Shown here piece after piece: positions 59,270 through 60,762 of a stretch of DNA of 64,000 nucleotides. The notes under the pieces are model-generated. The model was given only the letters and a program-made list of their open reading frames with translations. It had not been told where the DNA came from and did not search any database. Source of the stretch: Streptacidiphilus jiangxiensis (GTDB taxonomy: Bacteria > Actinomycetota > Actinomycetes > Streptomycetales > Streptomycetaceae); NCBI RefSeq assembly GCF_900109465.1, contig NZ_FOAZ01000005.1:204473-268472 (forward strand). Reading direction: 5' to 3'. Every line of letters starts with the position of its first letter. Within the stretch, counting starts at the first letter, position 1. Made by a program: the position numbers and the translations under genes.

Positions 59270-59360
59270 GGTCTGCACGACCGGGCGCGTGGGCGGCCGT
59301 GCACGTGTGGCCGGGCGCGTGGGTGGCTGCGCGCGCGGCTGCGTGTGTCGCTGCGTGTGG

Positions 59361-59394
59361 CAAGGGGCCCCGCGGGGGAAGACGGGGCCCCTTG
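59361..59394 (+). terminator. Terminator after the TMEM175-like gene
   Basis: A perfect 12-bp stem, CAAGGGGCCCCG with CGGGGCCCCTTG, encloses a 10-nt loop. It ends the transcript about 100 bases after the stop, beyond a short G/T-rich repetitive stretch (59270-59360). Confidence 0.8.
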
Positions 59395-60148
59395 CTGTCA
59401 GCACACGACGTCAGGGCCGCGTCGGTGCTGTGGCAACGGCACCGGGGGAGGGTGCCGTCGGTCGGTTGGCTCTGGTTTGTTCTGCGTGGGGGCGCACACC
59501 ACGCGTGCGCGCCTGTCCCACTCAAGGTGAGGCTGAATCGCTACTGAACGTCACCGAATGCGGTCGGTGACCAGCCAAGCACGGCTGCCGGGACCGGCCT
59601 GCCGCCGGGCGTCTCCGCCGCCTGCAGTCCACCCCCTCACCAGCATCGTGGGGGATATGGCCCGCTCGGCGCAACCAGTTCGACAGACTTCGGCACCGCG
59701 GAATTTCGTTACGCTCCGCAAGGATCGGCCCCTGGGGAGAGCCGGTAGTGCGGATCCCGCAGTGCGCCGGGGTGGCGCAACGCCACCCCGGGTGAGCGAG
59801 TGGCTGCTGACGGGCGGGGTGCGGCCCCGGTCGGACGGGGGCCGCCGGAATCAAGACCGCTGGAATCAGGGGTGGCCGACTCCGGGCGTCCCCCTCGCCG
59901 GCCACCCCGTCTCCGCAGTCGCAACCGGGCCGCTGTCCCCTGCTGTCCGGTCACAGCGTGGCCGCGAGGTCCCACGGCGCGTGCCACAGCACACGCCTCA
60001 TCGCGTCCACGGACTGGTTTCACTCCCACGCGTGGTCCTGCCTGCCGCACGATCGCCCCCGGAAGGAGGCTGGAACCCGTCCCTGGCGGGGATGCGAACC
60101 CCGTACGGTCATGGGGGACAACGATTCTCCTGGCGACGGGTCACGCGC
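59395..60148. other. Gene-poor interval before the chorismate mutase leader
   Basis: About 750 bases have no convincing coding sequence. Reading frames on both strands are open in places but rich in Arg, Pro and Ser with no recognisable domain, and none has a good ribosome-binding site plus codon bias. One perfect 11-bp hairpin lies at 59767-59791. The interval could hold an unrecognised regulatory RNA or a decayed gene. Confidence 0.5.
59767..59791. other. Strong isolated hairpin
   Basis: CCGGGGTGGCG pairs perfectly with CGCCACCCCGG around a 3-nt loop (CAA). It has no adjacent gene end, so it could be a terminator of an unannotated RNA or an operator. Confidence 0.5.
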
Positions 60149-60154
60149 TAGGAT
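60149..60154 (+). promoter_or_regulatory. -10 box of the chorismate mutase leader transcript
   Basis: TAGGAT lies six bases before the leader-peptide ATG at 60161. TTCTCC at 60125-60130 is a weak -35 at 18 bp. The spacing implies a leaderless transcript starting at or next to the ATG. Confidence 0.6.
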
Positions 60155-60160
60155 CGCAGC

Positions 60161-60229
60161 ATGTTCCAGATGGCCTACTTCTTTACCTATGGCACCGGAG
60201 GCTCCGGTCGCCATGGTGATGCCGTCTGA
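60161..60229 (+). CDS. Putative Phe/Tyr-rich attenuator leader peptide (22 aa)
   Basis: The short ORF reads MFQMAYFFTYGTGGSGRHGD followed by AV and a stop. Three Phe and two Tyr fall in the first ten residues, with four of these aromatic codons clustered as TAC TTC TTT ACC TAT; TTT and TAT are very rare codons in this high-GC sequence. A hairpin starts at the last Tyr codon, and a terminator lies between this ORF and chorismate mutase, an enzyme of the Phe/Tyr branch. This is the pattern of ribosome-mediated attenuation. Translation would be leaderless. The role is inferred; the ORF itself is plain. Confidence 0.65.
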   Translation: MFQMAYFFTYGTGGSGRHGDAV

Positions 60230-60278
60230 ACTGACGCAGACCCCTGAAGGCGCCCCGGGCCGATGGCCCAGGGGCGTC
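60189..60278 (+). promoter_or_regulatory. Putative transcription attenuator (pause, antiterminator and terminator stems)
   Basis: Stem 1:2 is ATGGC-ACCGGA with TCCGGT-C-GCCAT (60189-60214) and begins at the last Tyr codon. Stem 3:4 is GGCGCCCCGGGCC (60249-60261) with GGCCC-A-GGGGCGTC (60265-60278), 13 pairs with one bulged A, followed by TTCTCGTTT: an intrinsic terminator. Strand 2 (CCGGTCGCC) can also pair with strand 3 (GGCGCCCCGG), giving an antiterminator. Unlike the classical trp case, strand 2 lies within the leader ORF, upstream of its stop. Confidence 0.6.
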
Positions 60279-60328
60279 TTCTCGTTTCCGGGCTCTCGGC
60301 GTCGGGGCCGGACCCTGGAGAGTTCGCC

Positions 60329-60712
60329 ATGAGCCCCGACACCCTGAGCCCCGACACCCTGAACCCCGCCACCTCGGCGGACGCCACCGTGAACCCCGCC
60401 ACCTCGGCGGACGCAACCCTCGCCCCGGCCGATGTGGCGGTCGATCCCGCCGCGCTGACCAAGGCGCAGGCCGACGCCGTCATCGCCGGCGCCCGCGCGC
60501 GGATCGACGAGCTCGACACCCGGATCCTGGACCTCGTGCGGCGCCGTGTCGCCGTCTCGGCCGAGGTGCAGGCGGCGCGGATCGCCGCGGGCGGTCCGCG
60601 GCTGTCGCTGACCCGCGAGATGGAGATCCTGGATCGCTACCGCGCCCAGCTCGGAGCCTCCGGCACCGAGATCGCGATGCTGTTGCTGGAGCTGTGCCGC
60701 GGCAGGGTGTGA
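60329..60712 (+). CDS. Chorismate mutase (AroQ type)
   Basis: Chorismate mutase converts chorismate to prephenate at the head of Phe and Tyr synthesis. The 127-residue protein has a repetitive, unconserved N-terminus of about 40 residues and then the AroQ helical domain: ARARIDELDTRILDLVRRRV, SAEVQAARIAAGGPRLSLTR and EMEILDRYRAQLG, with the catalytic Arg and Glu positions kept. GGAGAG at 60317-60322 supports ATG 60329. An attenuator with a Phe/Tyr leader peptide lies just upstream, and guaA follows 90 bases later behind its own -10. Confidence 0.92.
   Translation: MSPDTLSPDTLNPATSADATVNPATSADATLAPADVAVDPAALTKAQADAVIAGARARIDELDTRILDLVRRRVAVSAEVQAARIAAGGPRLSLTREMEILDRYRAQLGASGTEIAMLLLELCRGRV
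60332..60421 (+). repeat. Coding repeats at the chorismate mutase N-terminus
   Basis: Two identical 15-bp units (SPDTL twice) are followed by two 30-bp units (NPATSADATV and NPATSADATL) that differ at few bases. Together they encode most of the non-conserved N-terminal tail. Confidence 0.85.
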
Positions 60713-60756: not shown

Positions 60757-60762
60757 TAGAAT
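60757..60762 (+). promoter_or_regulatory. guaA -10 box
   Basis: TAGAAT lies 40 bases before the guaA GTG, downstream of chorismate mutase. A small palindrome GGGTCGACCC sits just after it at 60765-60774, near the expected transcription start. Confidence 0.5.

Follow-up and report, generated by a model that had tools for sequence, protein, structure and literature searches.

A candidate leader-peptide attenuator with conserved Phe and Tyr codons upstream of chorismate mutase in Streptomycetaceae

Background

In E. coli, Phe codons in the pheL leader control transcription into the chorismate mutase activity of pheA, as we propose here for another leader. The pheL target is a fused chorismate mutase-prephenate dehydratase, and the leader, which has a ribosome-binding site, is keyed to Phe only.

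The closest known system is found in C. glutamicum, where the AroR leader of aroF (DAHP synthase) carries the motif Phe-Tyr-Phe and is reported to respond to Phe but not to Tyr (Neshat et al. 2014 via PMC11802643; PMC4046766). AroR and the leader studied here are both actinobacterial and both act, or would act, by ribosome-mediated attenuation of an aromatic pathway gene; however, AroR controls DAHP synthase, the first step, whereas our leader precedes chorismate mutase (CM). The trpL/trpE attenuators of Streptomyces, from the same group of organisms, likewise combine a leaderless leader peptide with a GC-rich terminator and an antiterminator, but have Trp codons and a Trp gene, and the accessible portions of the two reports do not describe the helix that we term 0:B1 below (PMC1262725, PMC8079986). 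The mutationally tested ilvBNC attenuator of C. glutamicum also has terminator, antiterminator and anti-antiterminator hairpins, although it answers to a branched-chain signal and belongs to a different operon (PMC11857589). The RNA elements listed in a 2005 survey of Actinobacteria are confined to Trp, Cys, Leu (together with ilvB) and ileS; earlier work on the ilvB and leuA leaders of S. coelicolor did not fit classical attenuation (PMC1262725), which cautions that attenuator look-alikes can mislead. RNA-seq of S. lividans yielded eight leader peptides, none of them for Phe or Tyr (PMC8079986). Our literature search returned no CM attenuator of the present kind; it covered subscription papers thinly, so that a report there could have been missed.

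We analysed a 64,000-nucleotide stretch of Streptacidiphilus jiangxiensis DNA (the window), in which a preliminary description had proposed a transcription attenuator sensing Phe and Tyr upstream of a CM gene.

Results

The leader and its neighbours

The features of the locus, all on the forward strand, are as follows.

60149-60154, +: -10 box TAGGAT, read from the sequence and followed by six bases to the ATG
60161-60229, +: leader ORF MFQMAYFFTYGTGGSGRHGDAV, 22 codons, ATG at 60161, stop TGA at 60227-60229
60163-60174, +: strand 0, at the 5' end of the ORF and complementary to 60221-60231
60176-60190, +: control codons TAC TTC TTT ACC TAT, in which TTT (60182-60184) and TAT (60188-60190) form a near-invariant pair
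60189-60199, +: strand 1, 5' arm of the anti-antiterminator hairpin 1:2, from folding
60200-60216, +: strand 2, 3' arm of 1:2 plus loop, partner of strand 3 once strand 1 is covered
60221-60231, +: strand B1, region of the stop codon, with strand 0 as one partner and B2 (through 60224-60228) as the other
60237-60241, +: strand B2, CAGAC, partner of GTCTG at 60224-60228, giving a helix inside the 2:3 antiterminator
60246-60261, +: strand 3, 5' arm of the terminator and also partner of strand 2, from folding and compensatory change
60265-60281, +: strand 4, 3' arm of the terminator, followed by TCTCGTTT
60329-60712, +: monofunctional chorismate mutase of the AroQ class, matching Pfam CM_2 and NCBIfam NF005894
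60803-62398, +: guaA-like GMP synthase ORF, identified from the preliminary description and the sequence

Direct reading of the sequence confirmed that a 22-codon ORF with a leaderless-type start lies before CM and that four aromatic codons fall within five positions; the TTC at codon 2 is a fifth. Two of the four had been called very rare, and counts over the 37 high-GC3 genes of the window agree: TTT makes up 4/361 Phe codons (1.1%) and TAT 5/304 Tyr codons (1.6%). The window has one leaderless-type start with such an ORF, and 20 shuffles gave none. The transcript is predicted to be leaderless, starting at the A of the ATG (60161). A simple consensus scan called neither a promoter nor a terminator at the locus, since its consensus does not accommodate high-GC promoters or short T tails. 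The approximately 880 bases 5' of the leader (59270-60148) contain no obvious gene.

That the next gene encodes an AroQ chorismate mutase is borne out by matches to CM_2 and NF005894, both above their cut-offs. Between CM and the guaA ORF lies a TAGAAT box (60757-60762), a hint that guaA has a promoter of its own and hence is probably not part of the attenuated unit. Elsewhere in the genome from which the window comes, the class II DAHP synthase gene and two other CM_2 genes have no leader of this type.

Folding recovered the hairpin described at 60189-60214, which begins within the last Tyr codon rather than at its first base. The terminator hairpin was also found, slightly longer than had been given, at 60246-60281 (-32.8 kcal/mol), while the T tail after it (TCTCGTTT) is weak. 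Strand 2 does lie inside the ORF, as had been pointed out. The Rfam leader, riboswitch and T-box families gave no match in the window at gathering score, and permissive thresholds over 60100-60400 gave only chance-level matches.

Conservation of codons and linkage to chorismate mutase

By plain DNA search, the element was found in 121 of 200 sampled Streptomycetaceae genomes, representing all 17 sampled genera, although a few of the weakest matches consist of the terminator alone. We extracted 124 loci, in which a few species are present twice because two collections were used; near-identical loci include those of S. neutrinimicus and S. pinicola. In 123/124 loci the start codon is preceded, at a distance of 10-13 nt, by a TANNNT-type box or a near match to it, which implies leaderless transcripts in the relatives as well.

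Residue 0, the window's TTT position, is Phe in all 124 leaders, and residue +2, two codons later, is Tyr in 122. Residue -2 is aromatic in 107 leaders (TTC in 88, TAC in 19), and this interchange is the pattern expected from selection on charged Phe or Tyr tRNA. The aromatic motif reads TTTACCTATGGC in 107 leaders and TTTAGCTATGGC in 13. The preliminary description had staked its reading on conservation of these codons, which are near-invariant across the 124 loci; conservation on this scale rules out chance. In eight leaders the tail of the peptide is frame-shifted (e.g. FTYGTGPVRLPWSCCLSH, GTGPVRLPWSCCLSH); the aromatic codons, which precede the shift, are intact and the RNA is still recognisable, which argues that the conserved thing is the RNA and not the peptide tail. 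Departures from the core are L008 (also L112), which has TTC with Gln replacing Tyr, L260, with TTC and Tyr, and L262, with TTT and His replacing Tyr. In these the switch may be decaying or changing its signal.

At residue 0, UUU is kept in 122/124 leaders despite its share of only 1.1% of Phe codons in the window. It is retained in nearly all lineages, while the codon after it varies (ACC, AGC, TAC, TTC, TGG or none), and it has no consistent pairing partner. This suggests that the codon itself matters, perhaps through slow decoding by wobble.

CM lies downstream of the leader in 124/124 loci. As a check on this linkage, we took 15 genomes of the family without a DNA match and scored CM by the NF005894 cut-off and the leader by a covariance model. 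An NF005894 CM is present in 4/15, and the leader adjoins it in 4/4; the other 11/15 have no such CM above the cut-off, and the leader is found in 0/11. Leader and CM are gained or lost together. Neither a guaA-linked CM nor a leader is present in genus g14 or in some g6 genomes, which keep only more distant CM-like genes.

Coevolution of the helices

Over 37 diverse sequences, hairpin 1:2 and the terminator have standard pairs in 96.6% of cells and show 22 double-sided changes against 4.2 in shuffles, the observed number exceeding that of 500/500 shuffles. To control for kinship we drew edge-disjoint pairs of tips from a CM tree and, across these pairs, set cognate arms against swapped ones. 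Terminator stem 3:4, on whose conservation the earlier reading had also been staked, shows strong compensatory change and coevolves in 21/22 contrasts (p = 7e-7). The arms of 0:B1 do so in 21/28 (p = 7e-4; about 0.009 when corrected for 13 tests). For B1:B2 the contrasts gave p = 0.04, which is non-significant after correction; its arms occur as GCTTG/CAAGC, GTCTG/CAGAC, GCCTG/CAGGC and GCATG/CATGC. Eight control pairings gave no signal in edge-disjoint contrasts. Pairings 1:2 and 2:3 are near-invariant and so offer too little variation for contrasts of this kind.

As judged from these alignments, the 0:B1 helix is an addition to the earlier reading, an extra competing helix in which B1 would pair with either strand 0 or B2, and pairing with the stop region accounts for the TTC at codon 2 better than a sensing role does. 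A single-pair covariation between codon 2 and the base after the stop was set aside: it gave p = 5e-9 without the tree but 0.13 on it, and for that reason we relied on the whole-helix contrasts. RNAalifold on the full alignment returned only a weak consensus, since indels around the stop blur helix B.

A computed switch

The preliminary description had called for RNA folding. We modelled the switch by removing the RNA up to the leading edge of the ribosome and folding the rest with strand 3 made and strand 4 not yet made. The mean probability of 2:3 over 94 leaders is 0.42 without a ribosome, 0.99 with the A site anywhere from TTT to TAT and 0.01 with the ribosome past strand 2; in the window sequence it is 0.00 without a ribosome, because 1:2 dominates. 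In the model, then, a stall on the control codons frees strand 2 for strand 3, and these codons are placed where a stall is predicted to matter. Pairings 1:2 and 2:3 are predicted to be mutually exclusive in all clades folded.

True terminator arms bind strand 2 better than about 92% of generic terminator arms, and the stalled-state fold is -29.6 kcal/mol with true arms versus -24.7 kcal/mol with generic ones. We stress that generic arms still reach a 2:3 probability of 0.89, so that GC richness by itself accounts for part of the computed switch. The switch mechanism as computed is plausible, short of proof.

Related leaders outside the family

When genomes outside the family were searched with a covariance model of the Streptomycetaceae leaders, related leaders were found before CM in the actinobacterial families f31, f37, f46 and f48. 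Direct inspection of CM loci added f12, f14, f18, f21 and f35, in which the core is often shrunk to UUU-UAU or UUU-UAC. In f4, whose genomes do have CM, a pattern search turned up no such leader. Weak covariance-model matches elsewhere (about 26-40 bits) were mostly ordinary terminators and were discarded. In f18 (L239, L242-L246, L248-L250) the CM leaders are down to about one UUU-UAU or UUU-UAC pair; in L239 and L242 the hairpins are followed by no clear T tail, and the ribosome-binding site of CM may be masked by a hairpin close to the start of the gene, so that control there may be translational.

In families f17 and f28, leaders such as MQRNFWRFYGYRP...ALR or MRTAWSFWYGDGP...ALR precede DAHP synthase (NF006421/TIGR01361). 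These are leaderless Phe/Tyr-rich peptides, often with Trp (MQRNFWRFYGYRP, MRTAWSFWYGDGP, VRNRFFSYGDAP), accompanied by a hairpin and a terminator, and DAHP synthase is the next gene in the loci examined (f17: L162, L165, L169, L173-L177, L181-L183, L185, L188, L190, L192, L193, L198; f28: L171, L196). Trp beside Phe and Tyr is what would be expected for the first common step of the pathway.

Discussion

Comparison across the family favours the attenuator reading, through the near-invariant codons, the compensatory change in the terminator and the linkage to CM. On this evidence and the folding model, the element is very probably a ribosome-mediated transcription attenuator of CM, working in the manner of pheL or trpL and keyed to the charging of Phe-tRNA and probably of Tyr-tRNA. 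Set against E. coli trp, the CM leader differs in its leaderless start, in having strand 2 inside the ORF and in its strand 0/B1/B2 switch; judged by comparison, it appears to bring a known mechanism to a new target in a variant layout, and it is widely conserved.

We infer the following course for stalling, termination in vivo, the amino acid signal and the role of 0:B1. RNA polymerase would start at the leader ATG, with a ribosome following. When Phe-tRNA and Tyr-tRNA are charged, the ribosome would pass TAC TTC TTT ACC TAT and cover strand 2 as far as the stop, upon which hairpin 3:4 would form and transcription would end, leaving a discrete RNA predicted to be about 120 nt. When charged Phe-tRNA (and probably also Tyr-tRNA) is scarce, the ribosome would halt with TTT or TAT in its A site and strand 1 covered; strand 2 would then capture strand 3 before strand 4 is made, B1:B2 within the 2:3 loop would help to bring the two strands together, and transcription would enter the CM gene. 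If there is no translation, strand 0 would pair with the stop region, 1:2 would form and the terminator would form again. The terminator is the hairpin of greater stability; which fold is taken would be decided by kinetics, as it is in E. coli trp.

The Tyr half of the Phe/Tyr claim is the weaker, given that the comparable AroR leader of C. glutamicum is reported to respond to Phe and not to Tyr (PMC11802643). The same attenuator might sense Phe alone, with UAU kept as the base of hairpin 1:2, where it pairs with CAU in strand 2, rather than for Tyr-tRNA; AroR and the fact that UUU is the most constant feature fit such a scheme. However, Tyr is kept as TAC where its partner becomes CGT (L161, L164), and the TTC/TAC interchange at -2 suggests that either amino acid serves. 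We regard sensing of Phe alone as unlikely, though with appreciable weight.

Other explanations dispense with attenuation of CM. The highly conserved FTYG core could denote a functional small peptide whose message the terminator merely ends, but eight leaders keep the RNA with a frame-shifted tail, and the N terminus is variable where the linkage to CM is constant, which makes this highly improbable. We find it only slightly easier to credit, and still very improbable, that the leader, once terminated, works chiefly in trans, either as a small RNA or as a peptide: although a discrete RNA of this size is predicted and peTrpL of Sinorhizobium offers a reported precedent (PMC7298713), attenuation alone explains the strict linkage in cis to CM and the position-specific control codons. 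GC-rich terminators like this one are common in these genomes, and a chance ORF might stand beside the terminator of an upstream unit; the conservation, promoter box and codon pattern of 124 loci refute this, and we assign it a negligible probability.

Taken jointly with the leaders outside the family, the preferred reading of a CM attenuator can be extended to a single old actinobacterial aromatic attenuator, reused at shikimate nodes with codons matched to the node (Phe/Tyr before CM; Phe/Trp/Tyr before DAHP synthase), in which the genome-avoided UUU would be a conserved, slowly decoded sensor and the stop region an additional switching strand. We offer this tentatively, its chances being somewhat short of even.

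Conclusions

CM commits the cell to the synthesis of Phe and Tyr, and chorismate, Phe and Tyr are precursors from which Streptomyces and its relatives make many antibiotics as well as other products, while little is known of how the Phe/Tyr branch is controlled in them. The element would offer a direct, editable control point at chorismate mutase, and it would make a general question testable, namely why attenuators keep the rare UUU, given that it shares its tRNA with the common codon.
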